In this document: in pieces, positions 13,489-47,422 of the stretch
Numbering within the stretch: position 1 is the stretch's first letter
Layout of the letters: the number at the start of each line of letters is the position of its first letter
Assembly: GCF_014066305.1 (NCBI RefSeq)
Contig: NW_023501052.1
Location: 747,001-811,000, forward strand
Source: Letharia columbiana
Taxonomy: Eukaryota > Ascomycota > Lecanoromycetes > Lecanorales > Parmeliaceae
Length of the DNA stretch: 64,000 bases
Direction of reading: 5' to 3'
Position numbers and translations under genes: made by a program
The notes under the pieces: generated by a model
The model's database searches: none
What the model was told of the DNA's origin: nothing
What the model saw: only the letters and a program-made list of their open reading frames with translations

Positions 13489-14041
13489 TTTCGGGGCTTA
13501 ATACCTTTATTAAGCTAAAAGAAGTATCTAAAATCCTATTTATACGCTATAAGAAGATATTTCTAGACTTCCCTTTATAGGGCCGCTTTTTGAAAGTAAG
13601 GTTAAGGCTATACTAGTGCGGGTATAAAACTTTCAATGTAGACCTCTATAGTAATAACTTTTTTATTTTCTATTGAAATTTTGAATTTTTTTTTTAAAAA
13701 TTTTGAAGCGCTATTTGCGCTTTCCGAATTTTTAAGAATTCTAAAAATTTGTCTTATAATCATCAAAGCGCAAGGAATTCAAATATCGCTCATTAAAGTT
13801 CGCACATTAAAGATCGCTTATCTATTTACTCGATAGCCTTAATTAAAAAAATAATTATGAATTTAATTTATAGACCTTTATAGAGGTCTATATCGAAAAT
13901 TCTATATATACGCTAGTATAGCCTTAATTCTACTTTTAGAAAGCGGCTCTATAGAGGAGAAGTTTAGAAATATCTTCTTATAGCGTATAAATGGAACTTT
14001 AGATACTTCTTTTAGCTTGATAGAGATATTAAGCCCCGAAA
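13489..14041. mobile_element. Element with about 165 bp terminal inverted repeats
   Basis: The left end starts TTTCGGGGCTTAATACC and the right end finishes ATTAAGCCCCGAAA. The arms 13489-13655 and 13869-14041 align over about 165 bp in inverted orientation, with shared blocks such as AAGCTAAAAGAAGTATCTAAA and ACGCTATAAGAAGATATTTCT. The centre is a partial copy of repeat family S. There is no transposase ORF, so this is a MITE-like or internally deleted DNA element that landed in the right LTR of retroelement copy 2. A target-site duplication was not resolved. Confidence 0.65.
13668..13885 (-). repeat. Family S repeat, partial copy inside the inverted-repeat element
   Basis: Reverse complement of the left half of the family S element, including CAAGGAATTCAAATATCGCT and the end TATGAATTTAATTTATAGAC. 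Only one end is present. Confidence 0.6.
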
Positions 14042-15039: not shown

Positions 15040-15570
15040 TTAGTTAAACAAGAGGAGGATCTACAATAGGCGAATGCGGAGAACACTGCGGAGAACATTG
15101 CGGAGACAGTCATCAGCAGCAGTGACACAACAGACTTACTCTCCACGATCTCACATCAATCCACTCAGCCAGTGCAAGAGAAGTCAATACAGCAGGCGAA
15201 TGCGGAGAACACTGCGGAGAAACCAAGCGGCAACAAGGCCCCCAGCACCAAGAACACGGCTCAGCTCTCCAAGATCCCACGTCATATGCTCTTCACGGTT
15301 CCACATCAAATCATCACTCAGCAAGCGGAGAACACCACTGCAACTTGGCCTATCATCCCCACTGCATTGAGGAGCAAGAGGAGGAACTACAACAGGCAAA
15401 TGCGGAGAACACTACGGAGAAACCAAGCGGCAACAAGGCCACCATCGTCAAGAACACGGCTCAGCTCTCCAAGATCCCACGTCATATACTCTCCACGGTT
15501 CCACATCAAATCATCACTCAGCAAGCGGAGAACACCACTGCAACTTGGCCTGTCATCCCCACTGCATTAA
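15040..15570. repeat. Tandem repeat, 200 bp period
   Basis: The segment 15193-15367 recurs at 15393-15567 with few changes, and the start of the unit (GCGAATGCGGAGAACACTGC) appears once more at about 15070. The unit is open in frame, rich in Asn, Thr, Lys, Pro and Gln when read on the plus strand (for example NAENTAEKPSGNK), but has no good start, intron signal or recognised domain. It could be a repeat-rich gene fragment or simply satellite-like DNA. Confidence 0.6.
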
Positions 15571-18220: not shown

Positions 18221-19324
18221 ATGTCAGAAGCAGACAAGAGAGAAAGTGCTAGCCCCCTACTGGGCGACGTAGAATCCACGCCGAAGTGTAGTTCCGGACC
18301 GCTGCCTCAGTCGCCATCCGCGCAATCTTGGAGACACAATGTCTGCTCGCACAACACGTTTCTCGCTTTCGCCTATGCGGTGCTCTGCTTCTTGTACCTT
18401 GGCCTCTTTTATGGCTGGATGCCGTCGAGCCACCACGCAAATACTGCCTGCGCAAATAGTCACGACCTCTTTCCATGTAAGCGTTGAATCATATCCAGCT
18501 TCAAGCTCAGGCGCCGAGCAAGCTAATTGTAGAGCGACCCAGCGATTGCGGATAGTGACGCCGTGCACTATGAGCGCAGGCCCTTCCCTGTTCGGATTCA
18601 CGGCAACGCATTTGCAGGGGAGCCGCGTCCTGAGCTCGACGCTGCTTGGCATGAGCTGTTCGAAGGTATATATCACCCAAAACCCGTCGCTGTTTGCTCC
18701 CCATTTGGTCAGGAATACGGCTTGCTTGGAATAAACTAATACTGTATTCAGATATCAGGATCCGCGTGTCAGCTGCAGATCTTATGTATTTCAACTTGAG
18801 CTCGATACCATTAGCAAACGGGTCCGGGTTTGCAGCAGAGTTAGGCGTGCATCATGAACTTCACTGCTTGGTCCGTCACTCTCCACCGCCCCGTTTCCAG
18901 AGGTGGACTCGACATTGATCCAAGCGAACAGAAAAAAATCCGCCATTGGATCTACAGAGACTATTACCTTGCCGACGAGCCCGAGTCAGAGCTGGTGGAG
19001 TGGAGGGCCCACATACGTGCGTACCGAGATCCGACGCTCTGTCTTGCTCCGTGACTCCATAGACGGAGGAAGGAAGATTGAGCTGCCGCATCAGAAGCAC
19101 ACGTCTGACCTACAACCCTAGATCACTGCCTGGAGATGCTCCGCGAGTCCATCATGTGCCGCGGCGACACCTCACTCACCACGTTCCAACACCTACCGAC
19201 CACGCCGCCGCGGCTGACGGCCGTCGCTCTCGGGCATCACCAGTGCGTAGACTGGGACCGCTTGATGCAGTGGGTGCGGGCGCGCGCGGTGCCCATATTC
19301 GAGCCCGGGGTCCTGGCGGAGTGA
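18221..19324 (+). CDS. UstYa/DUF3328-family oxidase, module A type I
   Basis: UstYa-family proteins are membrane-anchored oxidases that cyclise or oxidise ribosomal peptides in dikaritin pathways such as ustiloxin. My model joins 18221-18476, 18543-18665, 18752-18870, 18932-19016 and 19122-19324, all GT-AG and in phase, giving 261 residues. A polar N-terminus with SPLL is followed by one membrane segment (about 46-65). Next come HYE, PELDAAWHELF and two HxxHC motifs, HELHC (about 161-165) and HIHHC (about 193-197), thought to bind the metal. WIYRDYYLADEPE and LTAVALGHHQCV are also typical. The start at 18221 was chosen because it gives the usual short cytosolic tail; 18185 is an in-frame alternative. 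The gene converges on the next UstYa-type gene. The exon 2 acceptor is the least certain boundary. Confidence 0.88.
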
Positions 19325-19713
19325 GGAAGTGGTCGGACTGCTCGTTCAAGGACTCGAGGTGGTCATGTCTTTCGATTTCTTTATCCTGGCAGGGTTCGCG
19401 TTTCGGGGATCGGAGTTGCGGGGACCGTTCACGCGTCTGGAGTCCGAGTTCCGGGGTCGAGTCCCTGAACCCCTAGGTGGGGGTTAGGGCATTAGTCCCC
19501 AAAGAAGGGCCTTCAAACTCCCCGTTCACAACTTATTATAAGTCTATAACGAATGAAGTTACAAGAAACATTCGAACTGGTACCTTTTTTATCTATCAAA
19601 GTATCCAGAAACTAAGAGGCAGGATTTGTGCGGTATATCTCGTTTTTGGAAACCTATCGCATTGCAAAGACAACCCAGCGTGCCAAAACATGGGACCATT
19701 TGGTATAAAACTC

Positions 19714-20652
19714 TCAAGCATCAGCTTCAGAACGCAACCCCTCATCCCAACTCCCCCACTCTTCCGCCCACTCCTTCACCGCTCCAAAATCCCTACACGT
19801 GCGCCGAAAACTCCACCCCGTCACACCCCCCAACTCCATATCCACAGGCTCGAGGTTCGTGTCCGCGGCGCACATGAGGGACTGACGCAGGTAATCGAAA
19901 CAGTGCCGCAGGTGGTGCGGATCCGGGCGCTTGTTGTGATCGTGCACGTGCTGCATCTCCGCAATGGTCCCGTCCAACGCCGCGTAATACCCGACGCGTA
20001 GCATGTTCTGACGCCCCGGAGGATTCAGCCGAGCGGGCAGGCAGGGCATCCGAGACGGGGCGGAGAGGGGACGTTCTTCGAAAATTCGGGGGGGGTTAAA
20101 CGTACCACGCAATGGAGCTCGTGGAAGACGGCGAGGCCGGAGAGGGCGGGCGCGATCGTGGGGTGTTTGACGAAACCGACGTCGCCTGCTCCACGGTGAT
20201 CAGCGATCCTTTTCGTACCGAGAGCGTTTCAGGGGCGAGAGATGTCTGCGGGGGGGGCACGGGCGCGTACTGGGGAACATGGAGTCCCAGGCGGCGTTGC
20301 TCTCGGCCGAGGGTGCCTGCGAGAAGGTCCGGTTGTAGACCATGGGATAGTCCGTATGGCCGGATGGAACTACGAGGACTGGTCAATCGACGGTCGGACG
20401 GACAAGCTGGTCTGGAGACGTACCGAGCGGTCCGGAGTATTGGGGCTGGCGAGCGAGGTAGCCCACGGCAAGTCCAATGGTTATGGAAAGCGCGCTCGAA
20501 AGGAGGAGGAGGAGGCGCACTTGGAAGGTGGACCAGGGAGTGGCGGGTTGAGATTCTGGCCAAAGACCGTTGGGTTCCTCTTTGCTGCCGTCGTCTGAGG
20601 TCTTGAGGAGAGCATACCGGCTTGTTCGAAAATGGTGCGAAAATGGTGCCAT
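19714..20652 (-). CDS. UstYa/DUF3328-family oxidase, module A type II
   Basis: Second UstYa-type oxidase. The model on the minus strand joins 20652-20424, 20378-20271, 20188-20106 and 20007-19714 (237 residues), phases consistent throughout. It has one membrane segment at about 46-67, then YPMVYNRTF, AESNAAWDSMFP, GFVKHP, HELHC (about 135-139) and HLRHC (about 172-176), followed by TNLEPVDMELGGVTGW. Exons 2, 3 and 4 have exactly the same lengths (108, 83, 294 bp) as those of the paralogue at 30114-31052, so the two are duplicates. The gene is divergent from precursor 1, 794 bp away, an arrangement repeated in module B. It probably acts with the type I protein on the secreted precursor in the endomembrane system. 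Confidence 0.9.
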
Positions 20653-21446
20653 GGTCTTTGAGCGAGGACTGTTTAATGGTTCGTTTGAACAGCCCGAAGA
20701 AGGACGTGTACTGTTCTCAATACTCGATATTAAGGATTGATCCCTAGCCAGCGAGCCTTAGAACGCATATGGCCAAAGAAGACCCGGGAGGTTGTAAAAG
20801 CGGCGGCGGGTTGACTTTTGCTATCGACAGCTGTCAACCGACAAACTTCGAGGAGGGTTTCTGCAGCCTGGCTGACTACAGGAACCAGGAGGCCACGTCA
20901 TTGGAGGGGTTAAGAGGACCCCGCCAGCGTACATGAGCTTACCATGCATACTAATCGAGCTAGCTATTGGCCTCGACGATGTCACTCACCACGGAACCAT
21001 ACACGAAACACGTTTCGAGCATGCTTTGGTCGACAAGCCACTCGCACTGGTTTCCGTTTACAGACCCGAGGGCCGTATGTATACTTTTCTCTTGGCGTGG
21101 GGTGGGGCCCTTCGCTAGTGATGGCATCCTAACAATGGTGGTGCGCAGCTGATCAACAGGACCATCGCCCTGGAGCCAGCACTTCGCTGAATCCTACACT
21201 AGCGGTTACTGCAGTAGGCCGGAGGGGAAGCAATGAGCGGTGGGGCTCCCTTCCACATGTCAGGTCTGGTTAGAAGTCGTGGGCCTCTAATGAACTCACT
21301 CAGGCTCAGACTTGCCTTGCATCAATAAGACATCCGACCGTCGTCTGAACATAAAGCTTTACGGTCACAATAATTCTCATCTTCCAGATCCAATTCCTAC
21401 ACCTACTCCCGATTCCGGACTCAACCATAAGACGACTTATTTCGCC
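20653..21446. promoter_or_regulatory. Divergent intergenic region between UstYa type II and precursor 1
   Basis: The 794 bp between the two start codons must hold both promoters. No binding site was recognised. Small ORFs here lack support. Confidence 0.4.
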
Positions 21447-21762
21447 ATGAGATTCAACACGCTTGTTTGCGGCCTCCTTCTGGCTGCCGTCTCTGCCACT
21501 GCTCTTCCCGTGGAGAAAGGTGAGACACTTATGGTATATTCCGAGGATGATGGGGACTAATTAATCATTTCTCTTAGCAAAATCAATCCGTACAATGACT
21601 GAGATCGATGGAGATGATGCGGTAGTATACACATGGTCCCGCCCAGAGGAAAAGGCAAAGCGATCAGAGAAGGTGACGGATGGGGATGACCAAGTCGTGT
21701 ACACATGGTCTCGCCCGGAGGAGAAAGGCAAAGCGATCAGAGAAGGTGACGGATGGGGATGA
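21447..21762 (+). CDS. Dikaritin-type RiPP precursor peptide 1
   Basis: Small secreted precursor. Two exons, 21447-21519 and 21578-21762, are split by a 58 bp intron (GTGAGA...TTAG, branch-like GGACTAAT) and encode 85 residues. Residues 1-20 form a signal peptide (MRFNTLVCGLLLAAVSATAL). Two repeats follow, 24 residues apart: GDDAVVYTWSRPEEK (36-50) and GDDQVVYTWSRPEEK (60-74). The first ends KAKR, a Kex2-type site; the second reads KGK and then leaves the repeat frame. A third unit lies just downstream at 21758-21798 but is out of frame by one base, so translation stops at 21760-21762. Signal peptide, acidic repeats with an aromatic core, dibasic site and a neighbouring UstYa pair match the architecture of ustiloxin-family precursors. 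The core VVYTW is not one I recognise. Confidence 0.85.
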
Positions 21763-21798
21763 TCAAGTTGTTTACACGTGGTCGCGTCCCGAGTGAAA
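21613..21798 (+). repeat. 72 bp core repeats of precursor 1
   Basis: Units start with GATGAT/GATGAC at 21613, 21685 and 21758. The first spacing is 72 bp, the second 73 bp; the extra base lies in GAGGAGAAAGGC (21718-21729), where the first unit has GAGGAAAAGGC. The third unit keeps the codons for VVYTWSRPE in a shifted frame and is followed by TGA. Confidence 0.85.
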
Positions 21799-22458
21799 TG
21801 CATCATGGTTGCAGGCGGAGGTAGGGGAGGATGATCAAAGAATTTGTTCATGGTTTGGAGTGTTGGGGAGTCTTGAAGCCATGACCTAGCTCTGTCGTGT
21901 TGGAGAGGGTTTGACAAGACCTTAACGTCCTGTCCAACTGCAGCATAGAGAAGAACTTCTCCAGTGTAGCACGCTCATCGTCTCTGCCGTTTTCTATCAA
22001 GCCTCTAGAGACAAGACCCACTGAAGAAAGTTATTCTGGGTGCAAGATTCAATTGATGTTGAGGCCTAGCTGTAGCCAGTTGTGGAAGGTCTTGGCTTTG
22101 CGCCATAGCTCGACTAAGGCTTGTGCGAGGGGTACAAAAACAGTGGGGCAATTTTCATTCAAAGAACACCAATTTTTTCGCCACGAGAGAAAGATAAAGG
22201 GGGTTTTCTTTGGGACTGGACGTTAGCTGCGTTCCATTGTGGTGGACTGTTTTTTACTATCTGTAATCAGACGTGAAGCCCCGGTCATGATAGTTTCCAA
22301 CGCAACATCTTAGATTATACGCTTAGGATTGGAAGAAGTTGCAATGATTACAGAAGCTCGTGGAAGTTATTTCCGCACCGGACCTCGACTTTGGAGTGCG
22401 TAGACCAAGATTCGGCTCGAGCTCAGGCAGAGAACTCGTGCTTATATTTAGTAGAAAC
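21799..22458. other. Intergenic, no gene seen
   Basis: 3' flank of precursor 1 and of the convergent SDR gene. No supported feature. Confidence 0.4.
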
Positions 22459-23400
22459 TTACCAGGCCCAGTCCTCGCCTTCAATAGATGGGAAATGGCC
22501 AGAAGTCTTATCTCTAGTGGCACCGTCAATCTGCAATTCACATCCATTAGCGATGCGGCTCCCAAGGCTGAGATATCAGACGAGATCCTGACCGTAGCGA
22601 CCAGGAATTCAACACTCTTCTTCACTGGTACGGGCGCCTCTCCCATGCCGAAAGCACGAGCCGCTTCGTTGCCTGAGGCGGTCTGTACGAACCTAAAGCC
22701 AGGCAACGTTAGATCTCTCCCCCCCCCATCATCTTTACAAACACGGAATGTCAGGGATCTCACCCGGGATCAACAGCGAAAGCAATCAGTCCCTCATTCT
22801 CGAAATGCATCTTCCTCACGAGATAGTGAGCCGCGGTCTTGGAGACGCCATACGCACTCATCGGCACAGGTCGCTTCTCCATGCCACCGATGCTCCCAAT
22901 AGGCGACCCCAACACGACAAACTTCGGCTGCGATGCTTTTTGGAGCAGCGGTAAAACGGCTTGGAAAAGCAGTAGCGACCCGATGGCGTTGATGGAGAGG
23001 TGCTCCTGCACCTGCGCCGGGTCGACATCGGCCAATGTGGCAAAGACTAGATTCTGCACCGCGGCGTTGGCGATGACCGTGTCGAGTTTCGAGATTTTGT
23101 GCTCGGACTGCAGGAAAGCGACCGCGGTTTTGGCGTCGGTGGCGGAGGTGTTGTCGATCTTGACAATGATGAGGGTGCTGCTAGGGTCTCTGTGGACGCC
23201 GGAGAGAGCTTTTGACGAAGGGGTTGAAGGGTCGCGGACTCCTGCGATGACGGTGGTATTGGGTCGTGAGAGATAGGTGGTGATTAGACTTAGACCGATG
23301 CCTGAGACTCGAATTAAGCATGGCTGGGATACGACAGGAAGGATCTCTTGCCTCGATTGGCGCCCGTCACCAGGTAGGTGTGGCTGTTGGGTGAGGCCAT
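22459..23400 (-). CDS. Short-chain dehydrogenase/reductase
   Basis: NAD(P)H-dependent reductase of the classical SDR superfamily, similar in layout to fungal ketoreductases of secondary metabolism. The model joins 23400-23352, 23301-22764, 22692-22593 and 22530-22459 (252 residues, the usual length). Motifs: TGANRGIG at 12-19 (Rossmann glycines), NAAVQN at 95-100, GSPIGS around 148-153, catalytic Tyr167 and Lys171 in YGVSK, then DPGFVQT after the catalytic site and a C-terminus ending GHFPSIEGEDWAW. The first intron is a GC-AG type (donor GCAAGA after the codons for NRG); reading it this way keeps TGxxxGIG intact. The gene lies between precursor 1 and the GMC gene. It may reduce a carbonyl made during peptide modification; this role is inference. 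Confidence 0.88.
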
Positions 23401-23867
23401 TGGGGCTGATTGAACTTTGGTCAACAAGAGAATAGGCTCGAAATCAACTTGGCTATGATGAACTCTATGTAAGATGGTTTGGTGTGGAGTTGGGGTCAGG
23501 TGTTGTTGTGACTGGTAGACAGAAGGCGCCGCGGTTGGGTGGGGTAAGAATGATGGAGGTCAAGTGGTTGATGCCTACAGAGGTACTCTAAAAGGTAGAC
23601 TGATCAGGCTGAACCAGTCCTCCGTTCCCCATTTCTATTTTCTGATACTAAATGCTGACATACATATCTGAAGCACTGCAATGGCAACAGTCCAAGTCTA
23701 TTGTACTACTTTCTGTAAGCCCAAATTCGCTGCAACCTGAAATGTGCGACATGCGACATGCAAGGCAATGCAATGCGAGGCAATGCAATGCACATGTGAG
23801 TCTCAACCAACCGAGTCCCCCCTTTGTTTGCCTCCCACCTTCACTCGAAAATTACGTCTCTACACTC

Positions 23868-25536
23868 TCATCCCTTCAAGATTATCTCTGCTGCCTGTTC
23901 CGCTACTGCATATAACGTCGCCTGTGGATGCCCGCCAATTGCTACTGGAAACACGCTCGCGTCCGCAACCCGCAATCCCTCAACTCCATAGACTTTTAGA
24001 TCAGGTCCCACGACCTTTCCCATCGCCGCTGTACCCGAGGCATGAGCATGCGACACGCCAGCAGCCCTGATACGTTCGTCGATTTCCTTATCCCCGGACT
24101 GCAAATTTAATTCTGGCATCCCTGGTGGCGTCACTTCGCACGCGATGAACTCTTTGCCCCCTGCTGTGTCCAGCATTGCCTTCATGACTCGTCGGGCGCC
24201 GTATATGAGCGCCGCGTGATCAGTAGACGTGGCGTAATAGTTTGGGTTGATGACAGGCGGGTCGATAGCGGAGGTGGAGGCGAGAGAGATCGTCCCGCGT
24301 GAAGTAGGTAGGAGGAGCATCACGGAGCTTGCGACGTGAGTGCCATCCATCGGTAGGCTTAATCCAACATGATCAGCGCCAGCAGGAGCGTAGATGATCT
24401 GGGTCTCGAGATGGCAGCGTGTGGGGTGCAAGAGGGCCGCAGCGTCGACATCGGAGACGGAGTCAGCGCGTAAAGCAGTCGAGAGGAGGTCTGTGGGTAC
24501 GGCTTCTTTCACTGCCCAGTCGCAGGGCATGCCTTTGTAGTAGGCAGGAGAGGTCCAATGTGGAGTACCCATTGCGAGGCCTCTTGAGGGATCAAGTAAT
24601 TTCCAGAACTGAAAAAGGGCGAAGTGGTCGAACATATTTCGGCCGACTTGTGATGCGTCTGTCAGGAGAGGAATGTTGTGTTTCAACAGCTCGTCTGCGG
24701 GCCCAATGCCGGATAGCATTAGCAGCTGTGGTGTTCGGTGTGCACCAGCCGATAGAATGACTTCCTTGCGTGCAGATATCCGACTACCATCCGCAAGCTC
24801 AACTCCCGATATTACGTGCTTGCCTTCGCTATTGGTGGAAAATAGAACGCGATGGACCATTGTATCTGTGAGGACCTGCACCCCTTTGAGCCCGTACGCC
24901 TGATGAGACGGCTGCCGAAGCCCACTGCGCCAACTTTCTTCGATTTCTGAGATACCGGCCAAGCGGCCGCTGTTGGCGTCAGGGTTATGCTTTACTCCCA
25001 ACTCCGTCCATGCAGCATGTACTGGCTTACGGAGAAGGTACTGTCGCTCTGGATCGCTGCCGGATACCGAGACGTAATGTATAGGCCCTTCGAAGCCATG
25101 CTGTTGCGGATCTGAGTTGGCATCAAAGTGATGCTCTGACTTCTTGAAATAAGGAAGCAAGCCTTTGTAGCTCCAGCGAGGGTCTTTCACAACGTTAGCC
25201 CATTCGTCATAATCACTAGCATCACCGCGAGTCCAGGCGCCGTAGTTCAGGGTGCTACCTCCTCCGAGGGTCTTGCCGGCAGCGTTGTAGTGAGCACGGT
25301 TCTTGGTATGTGACTGAGGGATCAGTTTGATAGGCCCAGTCAAGTTCGGAGTGAGAGAGCGCGAAGCAACCCATGGGAGCCGTGGTGCGAGGATCGCCAG
25401 TGGCATCAACACCAGCTTCGATGAGGAGTATGTTGAGCGATGCATCGCCCTGTTTGAGACGAGATGCAAGCGCGCATCCAGTCAGGCCGCCTCCGACGAC
25501 GATGTAATCGGCCTCTGTTGGCGCCATATTTTGCAT
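23868..25536 (-). pseudogene. GMC-family FAD oxidoreductase, frame-disrupted
   Basis: Glucose-methanol-choline family flavoprotein. The N-terminus (start at 25536 or 25527) reads TEADYIVVGGGLTGCALASR, the FAD-binding GxGxxG fold, up to LDWAYQT at about 25322. From there homology continues in another frame: PQSHTKNR, GKTLGGGSTLNYG, and at the C-terminus HASGTAAMG (catalytic His region) and IGGHPQATLYAVAEQ, stopping at 23868. The two parts differ by one extra base and no intron fits, so as written the protein ends after about 110 residues. The combined length of about 550 residues is normal. This is either a recent inactivating insertion or an assembly indel. The rest is well conserved, with no other stop. 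In the cluster it would be a candidate alcohol or side-chain oxidase. Confidence 0.85.
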
Positions 25537-26165
25537 GAGCTTTTTATGTAGTACCAGGAAGGAGTGTGGTGAGAGGGCGGAGTGAAAAGGGGGGATGGTA
25601 AATATACAAACAGTCGAAGCTAAGGCAGCTCTTTCGCACATTCCCCCACCATCACTCGGATCGGAACTCGGAGCTTTTCACTGCCGAATGTACCTTACTT
25701 CACTACCAAGGTTGCATAGCCGTATGCAGCTCGCAGACATCTAGTGGCCACCCTGGAGCTATCGCCAGTCACGTTGTTTTGTGCCAGTCACGCAGATACA
25801 TCATGAAACATCTATTATACAGGTGGCTACAAGAGAGACACAGCGTGCGGATTCGTACAAAGACTTAACGCCGTTACACCCGCGCTATGAGCAAGTAGCC
25901 ACCAAACGCTTTGTCAAAAACTCGATCTTGGATCAGATTGCAGCTTCAGAGACCCCGTCATGGACCGCTGTCCGACTGAATCCTGAAGGGATGTGTTTCG
26001 TACCAAACCCCGTTCTGCATCTTGCCCTGCAACGTTGCACACTCCGTGCTTTCGCGTCCGCAAGCCATGATTTGAAGGCGGCAGCATGGCGCGGGTCCCA
26101 TTGAAAGGTACCTGTATAACGTGTCGAATGGAGAAAACATCTTTCAAAAGGCCATCATCAATATA
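25537..26165. other. Intergenic, no gene seen
   Basis: 5' flank of the GMC gene and 3' flank of the rhodopsin-domain gene. Short ORFs here are unsupported. Confidence 0.4.
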
Positions 26166-27491
26166 TTAGACATGCTCAATGTTCTGATGAACCATTATGA
26201 CTCCCACTTCTGGCAATTCCAGATTTTCGGCATCAGGTCCCTTGATGTGGGTATGCACAGCAGGCTCCAAAGCTTTGAGCACTGGAATCTCGTAGTCGTC
26301 ACTTCTCGAAGCCGAGCGTCCGTAAGGATGTCTACCGTAGCGGAAGGAACCAAAGGACTTGTATGCCGACACTCCACTTTCTTGCGAATTGGGTTTGGTC
26401 CTGTATCGCAGAAAGATAGGGCGAAGAGTTGGTAGACACGCACTGATGACGCCAAGAGCAAGTTCAATTACGCTCCAGATGAAGACCGGAGATGTGTAAT
26501 CTGAAAGACTTAGTGAGCGCTGAGTTTGAAGGACAAAGAGGCTTACACGTTTCATCGTTGAAATGGACAGCCAGAATATTGCCGACTTGGACGTACACCA
26601 CCAAGCGCGCAACGCTCGAAGCAGTGGCTCTGATGACGATCAGTAAGGCCATCCTCAGCGCACGACGAATGACTATAATGTACTTACAATGCACCCAAAA
26701 GAAGCATACATATGACACCTATCTTCTGCTTTTGGGGAAGTTGTAATTTCAGGACCATCGGTATGGGCAAGGCGAGAATCAGGCAATCCAACAGGATGTC
26801 CGTTGAGCTGCCAACATACCACAGCGGAATCGCGTTCACACATTTCTTACCGTAAAACGGCTCGATCAAGGGTGTTATTGGATAACATTGAAACAAACTT
26901 GCAAAAAAAAAGGAGATGGTCCATGCGGTGACAACCACCAAGAGAATTTTCGCTCGTATACGAAATGCTCGAACATCGAAGATGCGCATATAGAGGACGA
27001 GAATCGAAGCTTTGGCGAGACCATAGCCGGAGTACGTGAGCATCTGTAACGCAAATTTGCACTGGTGATGGATCATGTTACTACACGGGCCTGAGCAGGG
27101 CAGTGTCCTCCTTACCGTCTCGTAGCGCAAAAAGCGAGGGTCGTTCAGGATTGGCATGCCATTTGGCGCGTCCGTCTGATGCTGGCCGAGCTGTCCATCA
27201 ATCGCAGCTATTCACCACGTGTTAGGAAACAGAGTCGACGTTTAGGCATAGAGTGTACATACCTATGAGTTGAACTACACAAGACCCTATCGTAGTCGCC
27301 TAGGTAGTCTTAGAAACTTGATCGCAAACGTAGAGTCAAAGCCTTACCAGAGCCAATAAGATCAGGTAATCATCCCATCCAAAGCCTCGACGGCTCATGG
27401 TCTTTGCCCATATCCGCAGACCCACAACAGACGTAGGCAATACCATAAATATGACGGCGATGGCGATGGTCTGCCCACGGGAGTAGCCCAT
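26166..27491 (-). CDS. Rhodopsin-domain (Pth11-like) integral membrane protein
   Basis: Seven-helix fungal membrane protein of the large SAT4/rhodopsin-domain family, of generally unknown function; some members (Pth11) sense surface cues. The model joins 27491-27348, 27299-27263, 27207-27116, 27061-26688, 26629-26547 and 26500-26166, giving 354 residues. Helix-rich segments include GQTIAIAVIFMVLPTSVVGL, a WDDYLILLAL motif, YGLAKASILVLYMRIF, TAWTISFFFASLFQCYPI, and FIWSVIELALGVISACLPTLRP, the hallmark near the last helix, followed by a polar cytosolic tail. The 58 bp intron at 26630-26687 skips an in-frame stop and rejoins the family sequence at TASSVARLVVYVQVGN. It lies inside the RiPP-like cluster but is not a known transporter class, so a role there is open. 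Confidence 0.85.
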
Positions 27492-28963
27492 GTCGAGTCG
27501 CAAATACCCCTCGTCGCTCTCTTCTTCACGGCTTCTCTTTGTACGCCTTTGGGAGGAGGATTAAGATTAGGGCTGACAAAGATGATTTGTGTGTGCAGGG
27601 GTGAGAGAAGACCTCTGGATTATTTGTAGTTTAAGGTAGCGAATTATGTAGAAACAGGGACTGTTCACGTATCAAATGGAGGTAGATTCAACAATGAAGG
27701 AATTATAACATCAAGGTAACTGAAAGAGAGTCTCAACCACTGCCGTGATACTCTGGGTGAGGCAAAGCCATTGACGCAGGACTATACCTTAATCTGAAAT
27801 GACCGTGGAAGGATTTAGGAAGGTAGGTACTGTAGGTAGAGACAACGTGCCGAGAATGATCCTCGGCATCTACCCATCTACCCCACACACACCTCCACAC
27901 CTCCAAACCACTTTATCCGCTCCGGAATGCGCAAAAACAGATGGACAAGATAGATTGGTCAGAATGCTGCTTTCACGTCCGGGAAGCACCGGAACTGCCG
28001 GCACATGGGCAGTGGGTGGCAGTGTTCCAGGTAGGTAACCTCTCAGAAGGCGAGCCTCGTGGGTCCCCACACCGCCCATATACTTCTGCAGCTACACGGC
28101 CCCAACTTCCAATTTGCGAAGTGAAGCAGAGCCGACTGGTGTAGAGGTGGAGGGTGTGCGGATGGTTTGGCCAAGCCTTGCGGCTGAATTGCTTTTGCTC
28201 CACCAATGGAAAAATGATATGCATATGAAAAAGTGGGGAGGGGAGCGGATTCGCAAATCCTTGCCTGATAACGCACACGCTACCTGCATATGAAGTTATG
28301 GCTACTGGCGCAGGGAAGTCTCCGAGTGGTCCTGTTGTCAGCAGTATTCTAATTCAATTCCAACGAGATACGCACGGTATGCCCGATCATACTCTGCGGG
28401 GTTGGAAGGGACGAACCGAATTGAATTGATTGCGTAGGACTTGTTTTGGCCGTTCTGACGCAAAGCGACGCTGCTCTCTTCTCTGATTCGCCATCGAGCT
28501 ATAAAACGTACAGTAGGTAGTAATGGGACACCCGCTGACAGGACCTTGCAGCGCAAATGGTGCTAGGTACATACTACTTTAGTCCCGGCATTTTCCATTT
28601 CTTCGCTTGCAGTTGCCATGTGGCATCCCGCTCTGACAGCCTTCGGGGTCCTACACTTCGCATCCTTTATTAATCTTTTCACTTCCAATGCATTGCGCGT
28701 TGCAAAAACAGTTATTGATGCGGCACACTGTCGGCTTACGCAGTAAGCCTGAATGCCCACTGTCATTAGATTGTTCTCGCTGCTTTTACACAGCGGCTGT
28801 CAAGCGTGTCTTAATTTAATGTAAATATGTTGTATGTACGACTTGTTGTGCGAAAGGGGGACCCCAACTGACGCTCCAATTGATATTTTCCACACGCGTG
28901 GCAGACCTTTTCACCGCCTTGTCAGTGTTTCATTCCAAAAGAAAACCCCAGCTAGCTTCTGCC
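27492..28963. other. Intergenic, no gene seen
   Basis: About 1.5 kb between the rhodopsin-domain gene and module B. Several short ORFs exist on both strands, but none has recognised sequence or a consistent exon structure. Confidence 0.4.
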
Positions 28964-29989
28964 ATGTCTCCAATGTTTTCTAACCGCGCGGTTTTACTAG
29001 ACGAAGAAAATTACCCAGACGTTCAGCCTCTTCTCGGACAGCAGGAGGAAAAGGATACAAGCTCCAGTCTCGGTTCCAATGCCATCTTGCAGGAAAGTGT
29101 GGGCCAAAAGAAAAGAGCCACAACCTTTACCAATGGCTTTACCATATCCTCACATTCGCCCACGTTCCCCTCCTTATCCTCTCCCTTCTCCTGTATCTCA
29201 AAGCACCAGTGCGTAGCCAGTGTGTGAACAGCCGACTTGACAACCATCTTCCCCCGTAAGTAGCTTGCCACCCTCGCATCCTAGCTCTTCCACATCGGAC
29301 CGTACCTGCTCGCTCACCACAAAAGCCCTCGCCCACAGTAACGCTGTCCAGTTCGAGCGCCGCAATCCAGCAGTCAAAGTGCACACCGGCCCCACGCGAC
29401 CCACAGCTCGATGCCGCCCGGCACACGTTTTTCGAAAGTGCGCCGGAACCCCCTCACGGACAATCACGCTCGACTTTTGCTGACCTAGAACCACAGACAC
29501 CCAGGATCCGAGTCCCGCGTGAAGATCTCGAATACTACAACCTGACCTCTGTACCTGTGGCAGGTGGGTTCGGGCCACGCGACAGAGCTGGGCGCGCACC
29601 ATGGGTTGCACCGCCTGGTGAGTCGCACTCAAGCATGGCTCGAATAGCAATACGGTGCTGATGATGGCGGGTTAGAAAACGATCAGGCGATGGAATACAA
29701 AGACGACTTTTTGTCGACGAAAGGGAAGCGGAGATGGAGGAGTGGAGAGCGCACATCGGTACGTCCCAATTCGTGCGACTGTCTGAGGTGGAAGGACAAC
29801 CTGACGGGAAGATAGATCATTGGCATGGAGATGATGCGAGTGTCTATCATGTACAGGGGTCGTCCTTCGCCCGGCACCTTCCACTATCTTTCTGAGAATC
29901 GACCACGGTTGACGGCCGTCGCCTTGGGATGTCATCAGTGTGTGAACCGGGACAGCCTTTTGGAATGGGTAGGAGTCGAACCGTGCTAA
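28964..29989 (+). pseudogene. Decayed UstYa/DUF3328-family gene, module B type I
   Basis: Counterpart of the gene at 18221-19324, in the same position relative to its convergent partner. Recognisable pieces in order: MSPMFSNRAVLLDEENYPD (28964), a membrane segment HVPLLILSLLLYL (about 29157) in another frame, NAVQFERRNP (about 29341), DPQLDAARHTFFES (about 29398) in a third frame, RVPREDLEYYNLTSVPV (about 29510), GAHHGLHRL (about 29592), AEMEEWRAHI (about 29730), and GRPSPGTFHYL to LTAVALGCHQCV before the stop at 29987-29989. Successive pieces need several single-base frame changes that introns do not explain. The first HxxHC motif has become HGLHR, losing the Cys, and the second is broken by an extra G (CATTGGCATGGAG). 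This is very likely a dead copy. Confidence 0.8.
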
Positions 29990-30113
29990 CAGGACCTGAG
30001 TTGGCGTTGAAAGAACATGGAACCGGACCATCTCGATTAAAAACTTCATATGACGTGACGATAACAAAAACATGCATCTCGACCTATTCAACATCGACCC
30101 GGACGTACCGCTT

Positions 30114-31052
30114 CTACAGACGCTCCGACTCGCCGATCCCCTCGGGCCAGCTCCGCCACTCTTCCGCCCACCCCTTGACCCGCTCGAAATCCCGGCACGT
30201 GCGCCGAAACTCCCAGCCGGTGACCCCGCCCAACTCGAAGTCCACCGGCTCCAGGTTCGTGTCGACGCTACACATCAGGGATTGGCGGAGGTAATCAAAA
30301 CAGTGCCGCAGGTGGTGCGGGTCCGGCCGTTTGTTGTGGTCGTGGACGCGTTGCATGTCCGCGAGGTTGCCGTTCAGGGCTGCGTAATAGCCCACCCGCA
30401 ACATATTCTAAAGGGGGGGGGAATAGCACGGTCAGTCTTTGGCCGCGGCGAGTTGCGATTGGGGTAGGGGTTGTATCGTTGTTGGTTGAAAGGCGGGTTT
30501 CGGGATCGCTTACCACGCAGTGGAGTTCGTGGAAGACTGCGAGACCGGAGAGGTTCGGCGACACCTCTGGGTGTTTTACAAAACCGACGCCCTCTGCTTC
30601 GAAGTCAGTATGGCTCACGGCCTGGGATCCGTCTCCGCTTACTCGGGAACATGGAGTCCCAGGCTGCGTCCGTCTCGGGGGAGGGCTCCTCCGTGTAGGT
30701 CAGGTTGTACACCATTGGATATCTGACGTCTCCCGGCGGTATCAAAAAGTCTGCCCCGGTCAGTATCCTTCACCCTGACTTTGTCGTGACGGATCGTAAA
30801 ACCATCAACGTTGCCCTTTGAGGCGCTCCATCTGCGGTTTCCCAAGGCGAAACCAATGCCCCCGGAACCAATCATAGAGGTTATAACGAGAAGGGTAACA
30901 CATATGATATACCATTTAGACTTCTTCCCAGGCCTCAAGTCGGCTCCCGGCTCTTCTTTATTTTCCTCAGATGTGCGTAGAGGTACATAGTCCTTCCCTC
31001 CGGACTTTGAAAGATACGCTCCGAGAAAGCCCCGCTGCCAATCCACAGACAT
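30114..31052 (-). CDS. UstYa/DUF3328-family oxidase, module B type II
   Basis: Paralogue of the gene at 19714-20652. The model joins 31052-30803, 30750-30643, 30596-30514 and 30407-30114 (244 residues). The last three exons match the paralogue's lengths exactly, and most of the final exon is the same protein sequence (for example HDHNKRPDPHHLRHCFDYLR). One membrane segment lies at about 47-69, followed by YPMVYNLTYTEEP, TDAAWDSMFP, GVGFVKHPEV, HELHC (about 142-146) and HLRHC (about 179-183). The donor of intron 1 is the least certain site: GTTTTA fits phase and length, but GTCACG is possible. The gene is divergent from precursor 2. It is intact and could act on either precursor. Confidence 0.88.
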
Positions 31053-31601
31053 TCCGCAGAGTCCTGTATGCTGTGGACGAGGATTCGGAGAGACAGTCGT
31101 AGGAATGGTATACCTAGGTCTACGGTCGTATGGATGAGATGGCCAAGGAAAAAAGGTGGGGTTTAGAGTACCGGATCCGATTGCAAGCGGTTAAAGCAGC
31201 ACTTACTCGGATTCGACATCTTTGGAACGATGTCAGATGACGAGTTTCGGAAGGGGCAAGTAGTCCTGAACTTGCGAAATGGCCCGGATGGTCAACGACC
31301 AACGCGCGTTGGGCAATGCAAGGATGAGAAATCGATGGGAAGGGACTAAGGAAGCAAGAGAAAGACGAGCAATGCAAGTAGGTATGAGCAATCGATGGAG
31401 AAGGGACTAAGAAAGCAAGAGAAAGACAACACAGGCTGCATGCAATGATGCACCTAAATCTAGAAGGTGACCCGCTCACAAACTCAGTTATAACAGGTGC
31501 CTTTCCACAATCCTAGCCATTCAAACCCGTCTCCAAACTCGTTCAACTTCCCAACACCAATAAGGGGGTCAAAAAGATTCATCTTTGCGAATTTCGAGAC
31601 G
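31053..31601. promoter_or_regulatory. Divergent intergenic region between UstYa type II and precursor 2, with a tandem repeat
   Basis: The 549 bp region shared by two divergent genes. It contains a directly repeated 60 bp unit at about 31313-31430; both copies include AATCGATGG, AAGGGACTAA and AAGCAAGAGAAAGAC. Such a duplication could carry repeated regulatory sites, but no known motif was recognised. Confidence 0.5.
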
Positions 31602-31894
31602 ATGAAAGCGACTATCTACGTGTGGGGATGTCTCGCCCTCAGCCTTGCCTGCAACGCTCTTCCCGTTAGCCGCCGCGAAGGTATGGTAAACCATCTGGCC
31701 ACGCGGATCCAACCGTACGCTGACCACCGACAGGCCTCCTCCCACGAGCAGAGTCAGTAGACGGCGATGATCAAGTCGTCTACACGTGGTCTCTGCCGGA
31801 CGAGAAGAGCAAGCGTGCCGAATCGGCGGACGGCGATGATCGAGTGGTCTACACCTGGTCTCTGCCGGACGAGAAATCGAAAGTCAAGGGTTAG
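31602..31894 (+). CDS. Dikaritin-type RiPP precursor peptide 2
   Basis: Paralogue of precursor 1. Exons 31602-31680 and 31758-31894 (78 bp GT-AG intron, branch-like GCTGACC) encode 71 residues. A signal peptide (about 1-19, ending CNAL) is followed by PVSRRE with a dibasic site at 24-25. Two repeats come next, 23 residues apart: GDDQVVYTWSLPDEK (29-43) then SKR, and GDDRVVYTWSLPDEK (52-66) then SK and a stop. The intron falls at the same place as in precursor 1, just after ALPV plus a few residues. The gene is intact. It differs from precursor 1 mainly at the residue before Pro (Leu instead of Arg) and in Asp for Glu, so the two could give related products. Confidence 0.87.
31766..31886 (+). 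repeat. 69 bp core repeats of precursor 2
   Basis: Two units starting GATGAT at 31766 and 31835, in frame, each encoding VVYTWSLPDEKSK. Confidence 0.85.
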
Positions 31895-32828
31895 GACTGA
31901 GGGGCAACTGTGGGAAGGAATGGAAAGTTGCGGTGACGGCAGTCGGGAGAGTGGGGCTGAGAGCGAGAGCGTAAGCATGTATCAGCTGAGGCTCGGAAGG
32001 ACGACTTCATAGGGCCGTAAGATGATGATTCACGATCCGTTTGCCTTGTTTTGCCTCGTTTTTCGATCCGTTATTCTCAACGGAGTAGGTAGTGCCGCGC
32101 CACTGATTTTGTCACTGACCCCAAACCCCACCGCCACAATGTACATGTACTTAAGGCAGAAGAAGCAACAAAAAGCGAAGATGATTTTGACCACGTTAGT
32201 AATCCGCAGATGGGATTGGATTTCCCTTGCTAGATATCAAGATTGTAAAATTATAATTATACGAGAATGATTTGGTCTGTGAATGTGAGCCCACCTACCT
32301 TAGTCTCACAGCTTTCCCGCTCCTAGGCCCTGCTTTCGGCGTCCCGGGCGTCTGTGTCTGGTGCAGCCGGGGAACACCACCCCCATTCCATTCTCCCGAG
32401 AGTAGCGTAAATAACACGTCAGGTCGGGTAGAAAGCACCAAACATGCTCCCGACGAAAGAGGTCAAAGCTTCCTTCCACTTGCGTACCTACAATAATAAA
32501 GAAAGACCCGCGCAGATATTCGGCCGTGTTTAATACCAGTAGACGGTGGAGCCCATGCCACCATCACATTTGAAGCTTTCCCACCTCACACTGGTGAGGC
32601 TAATCCCAAGAATGGCTGTGCCCTGGGATCGGCATCGCATCGGCAAGAATTGTAAGACGCTCCTTCCTAAAGGGTGAGAATGGCGCACCAAGCGGGAGTT
32701 GGAGTTACATTCACCACGCGACCAGGCTGGCTTGAGACAACGACCTCCATTGTCTTTCGCCTTTTAAACCTCATCACATCCTTTTCCCACTTCTTATCAG
32801 CTTTCAAGTTCCGGCATTGCAAGCAGAC
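31895..32828. other. Intergenic, no gene seen
   Basis: 3' flank of precursor 2 and 5' flank of the FAD oxidase. No supported ORF or repeat. Confidence 0.4.
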
Positions 32829-34422
32829 ATGTGGCCGTTATCACCGTTATCATTGTACATCCTACCCTTCCTTCTGTCTCTTGTGTCTGCCGTCGTTCTA
32901 CCCACAAGTCCCGCCAACTCCACTTGCAACCAGCAGTGCCAAATCGACAAGAATCTTGGCCCGGAGTTGTCGAGACATGCATCGATCGTGCACACCACCT
33001 CCGCGATTCCAAGATGGAGCGATTTTGACGCGCCAAATCCCGGTACGGTTGTGAATGTGGCATCGGAACATGATGTGTTATTGACAGTGCGTTTCTCCTT
33101 TCCTTCTTCGTCGTTGATCCGACTTCGATGTTCATGAGAAGGCAGGTCAAATATTGTATTGCACACAATCTGCGCTTTCTGGCCCAGAATGGCGGAAATG
33201 CCTGGGGTACCACCTTCACCATAGGACAGAATGACGTGCTCATCAACCTGAGAGGCATTCGAAAAATCCGATTCAATGCCAACAAAACTCAGGTCACGTT
33301 CCAAGGAGGAGCTATTGTATCAGAGGTCGTGGATGCCGCCTACGGAAACGGAACGCAAGTGTTGACAGGCAATTGCAACTGCATTGGGACACTTGGTGCA
33401 GCTCTTGGCGGCGGATATAGCCGTCTGATGGGTTTGTATGGATTCGGGGTTGACAACATCCTCTCCATGAATCTTGTGACACCGTCCGGTACCGCTATCG
33501 AGGTGGGGCCCAAAGATACAGACCTCTGGTGGGCTCTTCGAGGCGCCGGTCCCAATTTCGGCATTGTCACCTCCGCAACGATGAAGTCCTATCCTGTCCC
33601 AACTGCGCAGAACGGTGCCTGGCTTGGCCCACTCATCTTCACGGAAGACAAGATCGAAGCGCTTGTCCAAGCCATCAACGATCTGGATCTTTTACCTCCC
33701 ATGGCCATTTTTCTGTACTTTGCAACCTTGCCACCGAACAACACGGCTACCGTCATCGCGATCCCATTCTATCTTGGCAATGAGACCCAGGGCAAAGCTG
33801 CCTTTGCTTCCATTTCCGCCGTAGGTCCAGTTGCGGATGAGACTGCCTGGATACCTTACAACCTTATCAATGCAGGAAGCGACACTTTCTGCGCGAAGGG
33901 AGGCCGAAAACCTTCATACGGTGCTGGCTTTGCGCAAATGGATCCTGCGACTTGGCGCTCGATTTGGAATGAATACAACACCTTCATACAGAATCCAGGT
34001 ACGCAGAACACAAGTGTCTTGGTGGAGTGCTACTCGTTATATAAAGCCACGTCGTTCGGCAACGCATCGTCCTCGTACGCATTCCGTTCATCTATCAAGT
34101 ACAATGCTGTAGTCAACACCTGGTATGCGGATCCGGCTTTGGATTCCAGAGCGGAGGCATTCGGCTCTGCGGTCCGAGATCTATGGCGGTCCACTGATAA
34201 TTTGCCTTCAAATGAGACGTGAGTGACTCGTAATCTTCTTTGTGATGTTACCGGTATCATGCGAAAGCAGCATTCACTTACCCCTTTTATAGCTACATCA
34301 ACTATGCCAATGGTGATGAGCCTTTGGAAACCGTCTATGGAGGGAACGTTGCAAGATTGCAGAAGATCAAGCGAGAACATGATCCGCGAGGACGGTTCAA
34401 TCAATTCTTTCCCCTTACGTGA
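32829..34422 (+). CDS. Secreted FAD-linked oxidase (BBE/VAO type)
   Basis: FAD-dependent oxidoreductase of the berberine-bridge-enzyme-like group. Exons 32829-33086, 33146-34218 and 34293-34422 give 486 residues, typical for the family. A signal peptide (about 1-22) is followed by a stretch that starts PGTVVNVASEHDVLLT. The FAD domain includes NCNCIGTLGAALGGGYSRL, LWWALRGAGPNFGIVT, and the C-terminal BBE motif YINYANGD with DPRGRFNQFFP. The loop that normally reads SGGH, whose His binds FAD covalently, reads AQNGGNAWG here, so that His is absent; the Cys-rich NCNC motif remains. Such enzymes oxidise amines, alcohols or phenols, and similar genes occur in RiPP and polyketide clusters. No stop or frame break is seen. 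Confidence 0.9.
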
Positions 34423-34951
34423 ATGTATTGAGTTTTAAAAGGCGTTGCACAAGGATCATGGGAGCATATCTGACCATTTGCGTGGTCCAACTTCAGATAA
34501 GAACATTCGTCCAATTAGTTGCATAAGGAATCATGTAGATAAGCCGCGTCCGGTGGTGACTAGTGCAGACAGAAATCGAAGGATTCGACCTGCAGCTTCG
34601 CACCTTTTATAATGCTTTCTTCCGAAATAGTGCGAGCGCCAGCATCGTACCGCCACCCGAAAACACCCCAGGATCCGACCGGGTGCCTCATGTACCCCAC
34701 CGCTCAGCGTCCATCCTCCCCCCGTGTGCAGCACAGCAGCTGCCCCCCCCCCCGGTAGAACAAACCCGCTGATGCAGTCCAGGTGCACCCGAAGCTGGGG
34801 CGTGCACGTGAAGTGCGGCCCGCACCACCGTTGGGATTGTTCACGTGAGCGGCGGTGCAGGACGCCATCCGAGTCTGATTTGACGAAGCTTCTCCCCCCG
34901 ATCCATCACCGGGATCCACCGTTTACTCACACGCAACTTTCGATCCCAGAA
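34423..34951. other. Intergenic, no gene seen
   Basis: Contains a C-rich stretch (34740-34754) but no supported gene. Confidence 0.4.
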
Positions 34952-36491
34952 ATGGAAACGCGCTACGGACAGGATCACCGAGCTCGCCGCCATCATCTCC
35001 CAGAACACGGAGCGCATCAGTAACTACCTTGAACGGACACGACCTGCCGCCGTTATCGTTCGCAGCCGACGCGCCCCCGGGCTTACCGGAAGTGCTGGCG
35101 AGCGCACGCGCTGCCGTCGTGGAGGCTGCCGACGAGCTCAAGCTGCTCGTGCAAGGGCCGAAGGAGGCACTGCAATCCGAAGGGGTTCGCTTCCCCTTTT
35201 TCCGCGATGGTGGCACCGAGTGCATCGAGATGTTGTTGTACGCGAGGCTGACCTTTCGCCCACCGCTTCGCCGCGCTCCAGCAGCACGATCTCGTCAGCC
35301 TGCACGTCGTCGTGGACTACGGCATCGCCCGATCCTTCCCCGTCGGGCAGGAAGCGACGTTTGCGGACATCGGCGGGGCGTGCGGGCTCGGGGAGCGAGA
35401 GGTCCGTCGCGTGCTCCGCCATGCCATGACGAAGCGTGTGTTTCGGGAGTCGAGGAAGGGCGTCGTGGAGCATACCGCCGCGTCGAGGCTGTTGGCGCAG
35501 GATGAGGCGTTCGCCGATTGGGCAAATGTCAATCTCGGGGAGGCCTGGCCGGCGGCAGCTCAGGTGAGCGTGGACTGTGGTTTTCATGGACGGTGGGCGG
35601 CTTTTTTCCTGCTGACGGGACGGGATAGACGGTCAATGCGATGCGGAAGTGGCCTGGGTCGCAAAGAGCAGCTCAGAGTGTATTCTGCCCCGAGCGACGT
35701 TATGGTGGTGCGGAAAGCTGAATGTGTGAGCTAGGGCTTTTCCTGCTCCAGGGGTACGGACGACACGCTCTTTGATTACTTGGGCAAGCATCCGGAGCGA
35801 GCGACAAAGTTCGCCAGCGGTATGTCGGCCTTCAGTACAGGGCCTGGGTATAAACTGGACCACATCGTCGACGATCCGCTCTGGACCGACCTTGGAGAAG
35901 CCGTCGTTGTGGATCTCGGTGGTTCGACGGGGGAGGCGATGATTGCGCTCACGAGCAAATTCCCTCGACTCGTCGCCGTGGTGCAGGACTTACCGAATCC
36001 TATCGCTAGGCATCTCGTGCCTCCGACTGCGATACAGGGACGAATTCGGTTCATGGCCCATGACTTCTTCAACGAGCAACCTGTCAAGGACGCCGATGTG
36101 TACTTTTTCCGCTTGGTGTTGCATAATTGGTCCGACGAAGATTGCTCCCGGATCCTCAGAGCGCTCGTGCCGGCGTTGAAACCTGGGGCCAGGATTATCG
36201 TCAACGAGTGGTGTCTACCGGAAATACACACGATTTCCATCATGGAGGAACGAAGATTGAGGTCTGCACTCTTTCCGCACCAGATTTTGGTGGGTTACAG
36301 AGCTGACTGGGGGTCTTTTGCTGTGTAGGGCGATGGACATGCATATGCTGTCGCTTCTGAACGCGCGAGAGAGGGATAGCGATGACTGGGCAGATTTGTT
36401 CAACCATGCCCACCCAAAGTTCCAACTGAAGAGTATCACAACACCTAGAGGATCAAACCTCTCAGTTATAGAAGTCGTATGGACGGGCTAA
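34952..36491 (+). pseudogene. COMT-like O-methyltransferase with a disrupted 5' end
   Basis: SAM-dependent O-methyltransferase of the plant-COMT-like type common in fungal clusters. The N-terminal part is spread over three frames: the ATG at 34952, then RITELAAIISQNTERISNYL (about 34972), then NGHDLPPLSFAADAPPG (about 35029). No introns fit these changes. Downstream the gene reads well with introns: QHDLVSLHVVVDYGIARSFP and the winged-helix part (about 35283-35560), TVNAMRKWPGSQ (about 35629), GTDDTLFDYLGKHPERA (about 35752), the SAM motif VVVDLGGSTGEA (about 35905), VVQDLP, FFRLVLHNWSDEDC with the catalytic His, and after an intron at about 36260-36330 AMDMHMLSLLNARERD to the stop at 36489. 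The catalytic domain is intact. Whether a functional start exists is doubtful. Confidence 0.75.
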
Positions 36492-44571: not shown

Positions 44572-44905
44572 GGCCAGTCCACACCCATTGAAGAGCAACA
44601 AGCGGCTACAACCTACATCTGTTAGAATCCATATATTTTACGTGAATAAAAAGTTCCACGAGTAAAAAGAGGAGGAAATGAAAAGCATTCAATGATGGAG
44701 AAGAGGCCAGCAAGTGGAACTCGATTGCCTAAATCCGAAAAATTACCGCTAGAAACCTGCGGGTATCGTAATCTAAAGTGGGCTTTTGGCATAATGCATT
44801 TGGCAATCCACTCCAGTCCTCGTGCAACATCAACATTTCCTCGACTCACATTTGCAGAATCATTATCTCCAAACCGTCAGGCGAACATACAAAGATTCAG
44901 CGGAC

Positions 44906-45546
44906 ATGGGAGCGAAGGTACCCAGGAACTTTCGTCTCCTGGAAGAGTTGGAGAAGGGCGAGAAGGGGCTTGGAGCAGGTACGCTTTGAGATTGAGGCGT
45001 CACACCAACTGGAACGGGACTGATGCTGCTGTGTAGAGGCTTGTTCCTACGGGCTGTCGGATGGAGATGACCTGTTGATGTCGAATTGGAATGGCACGAT
45101 ACTTGGACCCCCTCACGTACGCTGGACGTCTGACATGCTGCTATGAGACACGGAGGCTGATGTTACATGAAATAACAGAGTGCTCATGAGAATCGGATCT
45201 ACAGCCTGAACATTCACTGTGGAGAAACCTACCCTGATACACCACCAACGGTCCAATTCGTCTCCAAAATCAATCTACCCTGCGTTGATCAGAGGACTGG
45301 AAAGGTGGGCTACATTCTCAAAAGTGTGAGCTGTGTTTAACAGATCCTAGGTGGACCCGCAACGATTGCCATGTCTGTATCAGTGGAAGAGGGAGAACAC
45401 AATGGAAACCATCTTGATCGAGTTGAGGAGGTGAGATGCCTACCCTGACGACTTCATGCCCACATGGCTGACCGTGTGCCCCTAGATTCATGGCATTACC
45501 ACAACACAAGAAGCTTCCTCAGCCTCCCGAAGGCTCCACATTTTGA
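44906..45546 (+). CDS. MMS2: Ubiquitin-conjugating enzyme variant MMS2/UEV
   Basis: UEV partner of Ubc13 for Lys63-linked ubiquitin chains in error-free DNA damage tolerance. Five exons: 44906-44978, 45037-45116, 45179-45304, 45351-45430 and 45486-45546 (139 residues). All junctions are in phase, and none of the exons is long enough to stand out as an ORF. The sequence is diagnostic: [94 protein letters not shown] and the tail [17 protein letters not shown]. As expected for a UEV, the active-site Cys of true E2 enzymes is missing. It is divergent from MON2, 334 bp away, and upstream of the LYR-motif gene. Confidence 0.92.
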
Positions 45547-47322: not shown

Positions 47323-47422
47323 GCGCTGACAAGACTGGTGCTCAGAGGTTGGAAATGCTTCATTCGTCAGTGTTTAAAGAGAAAGCCAAGAGTCCCTAAC
47401 AGAGGGACCGATCTTAATCCCA

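Follow-up and report, generated by a model that had tools for sequence, protein, structure and literature searches.

Dikaritins such as ustiloxin, phomopsin and asperipin-2a are fungal ribosomally synthesized and post-translationally modified peptides (RiPPs), whose secreted Kex2-repeat precursors are encoded near UstYa-type (DUF3328) genes and contain a core Tyr preceded by acidic residues (PMC7329392, PMC6339444), all of which is shared by the locus described here. In ustiloxin and phomopsin, an ether crosslink joins the Tyr to the Ile of a YxI motif (PMC7329392), and a dikaritin pathway as defined by Ding et al. (cited in PMC12048977) comprises five kinds of genes, encoding a precursor, DUF3328 proteins, a tyrosinase, a methyltransferase and a transporter or peptidase. 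More broadly, the main text of a survey of Kex2-repeat proteins (KEPs) reports DUF3328 genes near 1758 of 7878 KEPs (PMC7329392). One DUF3328 protein, CctR, is described as a membrane-bound binuclear copper enzyme, in which Ala changes in the HxxHC residues abolish the activity (PMC12435403). We analyzed a 64,000-nucleotide stretch of DNA from the lichen fungus Letharia columbiana (contig NW_023501052.1, positions 747,001 to 811,000; "the window", in whose positions all coordinates are given), where an earlier sequence-only reading had proposed a dikaritin-type gene cluster at 18221..36491. We favour, with fair confidence, a UstYa-type ribosomal-peptide locus in which a module of three genes was duplicated long ago; UstYa2 and UstYa4 would oxidize a VVYTWS core and Kex2 would release the product. 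This reading is directly supported by the gene content, the duplication, purifying selection, core conservation and consecutive locus tags in other fungi. The genes of the two modules are as follows.

18221..19324, plus strand: UstYa1, module A, 261 amino acids in five modelled exons, PF11807 at 143.7 bits, motifs HELHC and HIHHC
19714..20652, minus strand: UstYa2, module A, 236 amino acids in four modelled exons, PF11807 at 92.3 bits, motifs HELHC and HLRHC
21447..21762, plus strand: precursor A, module A, 85 amino acids, VVYTWSRPEE twice in frame
28964..29990, plus strand: UstYa3, module B, pseudogene copy of UstYa1, assigned by its match to UstYa1
30114..31052, minus strand: UstYa4, module B, 243 amino acids in four modelled exons, PF11807 at 93.4 bits, HxxHC twice
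31602..31894, plus strand: precursor B, module B, 79 amino acids, VVYTWSLPDE twice

The splice sites are models, supported where the database proteins P0026, P0018, P0002 and P0041 agree with them. Both precursors have one modelled intron and, as judged from the letters, a hydrophobic signal-like start that ends near Ala-Leu-Pro, and both are built from the repeat unit DGDDxVVYTWS[R/L]P[E/D]E, with KR separating the units. The two small precursors with a repeated aromatic core and dibasic sites, as claimed by the sequence-only reading, were thus borne out. The core continues with SR after the Trp in precursor A and with SL in precursor B, which suggests two related products. When 18.0-36.6 kb was searched in six frames for 8-residue words recurring 10-60 residues apart with KR or RR between them, all nine cases fell inside the two precursor genes, and none of 100 order-1 Markov control sequences contained any such word; together with relatives at E-values down to 1e-61 against the profile described below, this rules out that the repeats arose by chance. 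Furthermore, the C-terminal part of the NCBI protein HO173_005142 (P0026) from L. columbiana equals precursor A letter for letter, and precursor B is the same as P0018 at 78 of 79 residues and as P0002 at 76 of 79, with the same splice junction in both. Proteins of both precursor types occur in other sources as well, P0016, P0019 and P0024 resembling precursor A and P0002 and P0018 precursor B, as judged by eye. Among the scored candidates, no further VVYTWS precursor was found in this genome, the three matches at E <= 10 all lying in the window.

A first search with one precursor B model afforded 11 proteins (E <= 10), and a second one, with a profile of those 11 and the window sequence, yielded 37 (E <= 1, 7983 scored candidates). 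The pattern D.D[DEN]...[YF].W occurs in 36 of these 37 relatives, while P0037 (E 0.07) is without a unit. A pattern search caught 91 repeat units in the 37 relatives taken together with precursors A and B (P0026 being equal to one of these two); since this pattern required the first D and an aromatic residue or His at position 8, it skips degenerate copies, for example in P0008, P0032 and P0035. Among the 91 units, position 2 is G or A in 89, position 3 is D in all 91, and the Tyr, T/S, Trp and Pro positions are kept in 89, 87, 88 and 84, respectively. In a less pattern-dependent count over the 37 proteins, Y.W follows at the correct place after 83 of 89 D[GAS][DN][DEN] sites. The named sources are L. 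columbiana, Cudoniella acicularis (two proteins), Acarospora aff. strigata, Aspergillus aculeatus and Talaromyces islandicus, so that the family spans lichen fungi, Leotiomycetes and Eurotiomycetes. Absence from relatives, which the sequence-only reading had named as a ground for giving up its proposal, is excluded by these proteins. Its statement that the core is not known from described members also held, in that VVYTWS, VYTWSL, YTWSLP, YTWAVP, DGDDQVVY, DGDDKVVY, VVYTWA and DDQVVYTW are all absent from the main text of the 5.39 million papers searched (supplements excluded). With the motif DxDDxVVYTWSxP, further members of this precursor family can be sought, whose small genes appear to be often left unannotated. 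We take the label Integrase_DNA, carried by P0014 and P0020, to be spurious, its score lying below its cut-off. We think that the family is neither type G-5 nor type G-6 of the KEP survey (PMC7329392), as Colletotrichum, Cordyceps and other genera of those types are absent from the named hits, a comparison by genus only in which most of the 37 hits carry no species name.

The sequence-only reading had counted four UstYa-type genes, three of them intact, and this count was confirmed by PF11807 (cut-off 25 bits), the splice models and the HxxHC motifs. UstYa1, UstYa2 and UstYa4 have uninterrupted spliced models with two motifs each, HxxHC(x)nHxxHC, and each precursor gene has a UstYa gene directly beside it, UstYa2 next to precursor A and UstYa4 next to precursor B. 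The last splice junction of UstYa4 lies within a match to P0041 with 121 of 123 residues equal. A profile of UstYa2 and UstYa4 retrieved 275 matches (E <= 1e-20); among the 120 of these that were listed, 118 have two HxxHC motifs and two have one. In the predicted structure of the UstYa2/4 orthologue P0040, a model of moderate confidence (pLDDT 67.7, pTM 0.50), a long N-terminal helix (40-70) precedes two helices (130-149 and 168-185) that carry the motifs, an arrangement that resembles the DUF3328 copper enzymes exemplified by CctR (PMC12435403). CctR differs from the proposed role of UstYa2/4 in that its substrate is a non-ribosomal cyclic peptide, which it hydroxylates (PMC12435403). A search of the PDB by sequence gave no convincing match to a solved structure for a UstYa relative, only two weak ones (E 0.05 and 0.12).

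The module UstYa(+), UstYa(-), precursor(+) is present twice, collinear and on the same strands, in 17.7-22.4 kb and 28.0-32.6 kb, a duplication that the sequence-only reading had missed. UstYa2 and UstYa4 share 61% identity over 218 amino acids, and a Nei-Gojobori count gave a synonymous divergence (dS) of 1.42, a nonsynonymous divergence (dN) of 0.36 and a dN/dS of 0.25, the ratio being 0.47 before the first HxxHC region and 0.09 from there onwards. Between the two precursors, the leaders differ more than the repeats, with a proportion of nonsynonymous differences (pN) of 0.52 against 0.18, and synonymous differences are saturated. By these sequence comparisons, the module copies are old and the catalytic part of UstYa is under purifying selection; because of the dS, dN/dS and pN values, both UstYa2/4 copies and both precursors must have been long retained. 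The UstYa1-type copy is intact in module A only. Module A is complete. In module B, UstYa4 and the precursor remain and the UstYa1-type enzyme is gone, so that the duplicated module could serve as a natural means of telling apart what each UstYa type does.

The pairing of precursor and enzyme recurs in other fungi. In Acarospora, the precursor MMC16_006706 is followed by the UstYa2/4 relative MMC16_006707 (third listed match), on contigs of equal listed size (79,278); in Cudoniella, the precursor g9557 is followed by G7Y89_g9558 (fifth listed; 25,807 for both contigs), and in T. islandicus, the precursor 06217 by PISL3812_06218 (eleventh listed; 2,165,932 for both). Consecutive tags thus cover three of the four named species besides Letharia, the tag of A. 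aculeatus carrying no gene order. These data bear on the proposal that the products are linear, uncyclized signalling peptides of the pheromone-like Kex2-repeat kind, with the UstYa enzymes hydroxylating or otherwise changing them or acting elsewhere. DUF3328 proteins do also hydroxylate, halogenate and isomerize (PMC12435403), and 6120 of the 7878 surveyed Kex2-repeat proteins have no DUF3328 neighbour (PMC7329392). However, UstYa is tied to the precursor here by their pairing after duplication and by the consecutive tags in three genomes, and mating-factor and pheromone precursors in the survey lack DUF3328 neighbours with three exceptions (PMC7329392), so that we regard linear signalling peptides as improbable. 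In Ramalina, Rutstroemia, Bacidia and Thelotrema, close UstYa relatives occur but none of the named precursor matches does, which speaks against a universal pairing; perhaps such small genes go unannotated there.

We file the locus, which would work like a dikaritin pathway, as a UstYa-linked Kex2-repeat RiPP locus and not as a strict dikaritin, because the contig has no tyrosinase match and YTW stands in the core in place of YxI. The proposal of a dikaritin-class locus thus stood as far as a UstYa-type RiPP is concerned, with KR-repeat precursors beside UstYa, the pair kept after duplication and linked in three genomes, and fell short of the strict definition. Elements of that definition that are present are precursors with a leader and repeated cores, and multiple DUF3328 proteins (three intact, one broken). 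The anatomy of the UstYa-linked KEPs, or ust-RiPS, of the survey (PMC7329392) is also found here, with a signal-like start, repeats with Kex2 sites and a DUF3328 gene beside the precursor; this repeat family is not seen in the survey's main text and could be among its supplementary types. DxDD, the acidic stretch in front of the core, is reminiscent of EDYxI in the repeats of ustiloxin and phomopsin (PMC6339444). In contrast to the described dikaritins, the core VVYTWS has a Trp at Tyr+2, and a duplicated module encodes two precursors. Kex2-repeat peptides with the core YVW[GA][GS] (PMC6339444) likewise contain Tyr-x-Trp in a repeated, Kex2-flanked and secreted form, but they have other flanks, and that paper does not use the term DUF3328 in its main text. 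The RiPP clans R1 and R2 of lichen fungi (PMC12048977) come from the same family, Parmeliaceae, and possess UstYa-type genes, two in R1 together with an O-methyltransferase; they differ in that no repeat precursor was found there and that R1 has a tyrosinase. The main text of that survey does not name Letharia. With the present locus, a member of the Parmeliaceae has a clear RiPP precursor, the conserved core of which could be sought by mass, and a paired enzyme that is testable.

The genome as a whole gave 35 UstYa matches, which are exon pieces, distributed over 14 contigs, so that several further UstYa loci exist. On another contig of the assembly (C62), tyrosinase matches at 42204-42835 lie near UstYa matches at 47119-47719 and 52917-53243, and judging by these matches the C62 locus (42204-53243) is closer in appearance to a classical dikaritin cluster or a clan R1 cluster than is the locus described here.

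We infer secretion, Kex2 cleavage, copper chemistry (from CctR) and the site and type of a crosslink as follows. The precursor would enter the secretory pathway, and membrane-anchored UstYa2/4 would have a lumenal copper site formed by two HxxHC motifs, by analogy with CctR. UstYa2/4 would recognize the acidic DxDD stretch and oxidize the adjoining VVYTWS core, most likely at the near-invariant Tyr and Trp. The most likely link would connect the Tyr to the residue at +2, the Trp, in analogy with the Tyr to Ile link in YxI (PMC7329392). Kex2 would then cut at KR, the ends would be trimmed, and UstYa1 possibly makes a second change. That UstYa2/4 indeed joins the near-invariant Tyr to the Trp at +2, to give a Tyr-Trp-crosslinked fungal ribosomal peptide, is a tentative idea and, in our estimate, a doubtful one. 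We know of no characterized UstYa product with this ring type.

Several observations count against the UstYa-type ribosomal-peptide reading as a whole. Tyrosinase (PF00264) has no match on this contig (C17), the three matches in the genome lying on C38 and C62. Among the best 120 of 275 UstYa matches, there is no partner for g9741, the second precursor of Cudoniella, nor does any name from L. columbiana (HO173) appear. Furthermore, part of the locus is decaying: in UstYa3 the Cys of the first motif is replaced and the frame is lost at the second, the frame of a GMC oxidoreductase gene is broken, and a third repeat copy of precursor A, extending to about 21798, lies in another frame, whereas the relative P0016 has three repeats in frame. 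The frame breaks may be real or may stem from errors in the assembly; the ending of precursor A is at least shared by P0026. These same defects would be expected if the cluster were dying in L. columbiana and made no product now. We consider this the least probable of the explanations weighed here, since UstYa1, UstYa2, UstYa4 and two in-frame repeats per precursor are still open and UstYa2/4 have been under purifying selection since the duplication, an average that says little on recent time.

Some relatives carry hints of transcription. The modelled precursor intron is already removed in P0018, P0002 and P0016, and the last splice junction of UstYa4 is present in P0041, yet the letters modelled as the preceding intron are kept there. 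These relatives bear the source label "lgn", which we take to be Logan. By eye, P0003 (labels lgn and ncbi) continues into the intron, which suggests that such gene calls ignore splicing. P0002, P0016, P0018 and P0041, which are spliced, are therefore probably derived from RNA of close relatives, which suggests transcription there.

Five other genes lie between or directly beside the modules and are candidate members of the cluster.

22323..23400 (approximate ends), minus strand: short-chain dehydrogenase (SDR) gene, PF00106 at 58.8 bits
23868..25677, minus strand: GMC oxidoreductase gene with a frame break, PF00732 and PF05199
26166..27490 (approximate ends), minus strand: gene for a membrane protein with a fungal rhodopsin domain (Fung_rhodopsin), PF20684 at 118.2 bits on 26684-27211
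32830..34422 (approximate ends), plus strand: FAD-binding oxidase of BBE type, PF01565 at 54.9 bits
34954..36491 (approximate start), plus strand: O-methyltransferase (OMT) gene, PF00891 at 73.7 bits

The SDR, GMC, BBE-type oxidase and O-methyltransferase genes named in the sequence-only reading are thus supported by Pfam, the BBE-type one as an FAD-binding oxidase (PF01565), and the rhodopsin-domain gene, between modules A and B, was absent from its gene list. Two open frames of the GMC gene overlap at 25258-25481, the site of the frame break; PF00732 and PF05199 share one frame, and the N-terminal nucleotide-binding piece is in another. The OMT gene adjoins the modules and is a candidate for the methyltransferase of the dikaritin definition. 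The methyltransferases of known dikaritin pathways are N-methyltransferases. No transporter or peptidase matched among the selected long open frames (not all frames) scanned in 18-37 kb. It is quite possible, though we lean slightly the other way, that the pathway consists of the two three-gene modules only and that these five genes are unrelated neighbours, which would be compatible with the UstYa-type reading. Indeed, blastn between the two stretches gave four matches, all inside UstYa and precursor genes, so that the neighbours were not co-duplicated, and the GMC gene is broken. The position of these genes argues for membership, as does the fact that enzymes of the SDR, GMC, BBE and OMT kinds are usual in fungal clusters. 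Likewise, one RiPP clan of the Parmeliaceae has recurring O-methyltransferases (PMC12048977).

The G+C content is 49-58% across the cluster region. Beside it, window positions 1-14000 are AT-rich, with a G+C content of 14-21% in six of seven 2-kb steps and 42% at 6001-8000, and a tandem pair of a 200-bp unit (15174-15568, 92% matching) sits at the edge of the AT-rich block and the cluster. Farther along the window, a NACHT/NPHP3_N ATPase gene with DUF7791 (59331-61638, minus strand) is split over two frames, and a 15-bp repeat array (60451-60581) lies inside the overlap of both frames.

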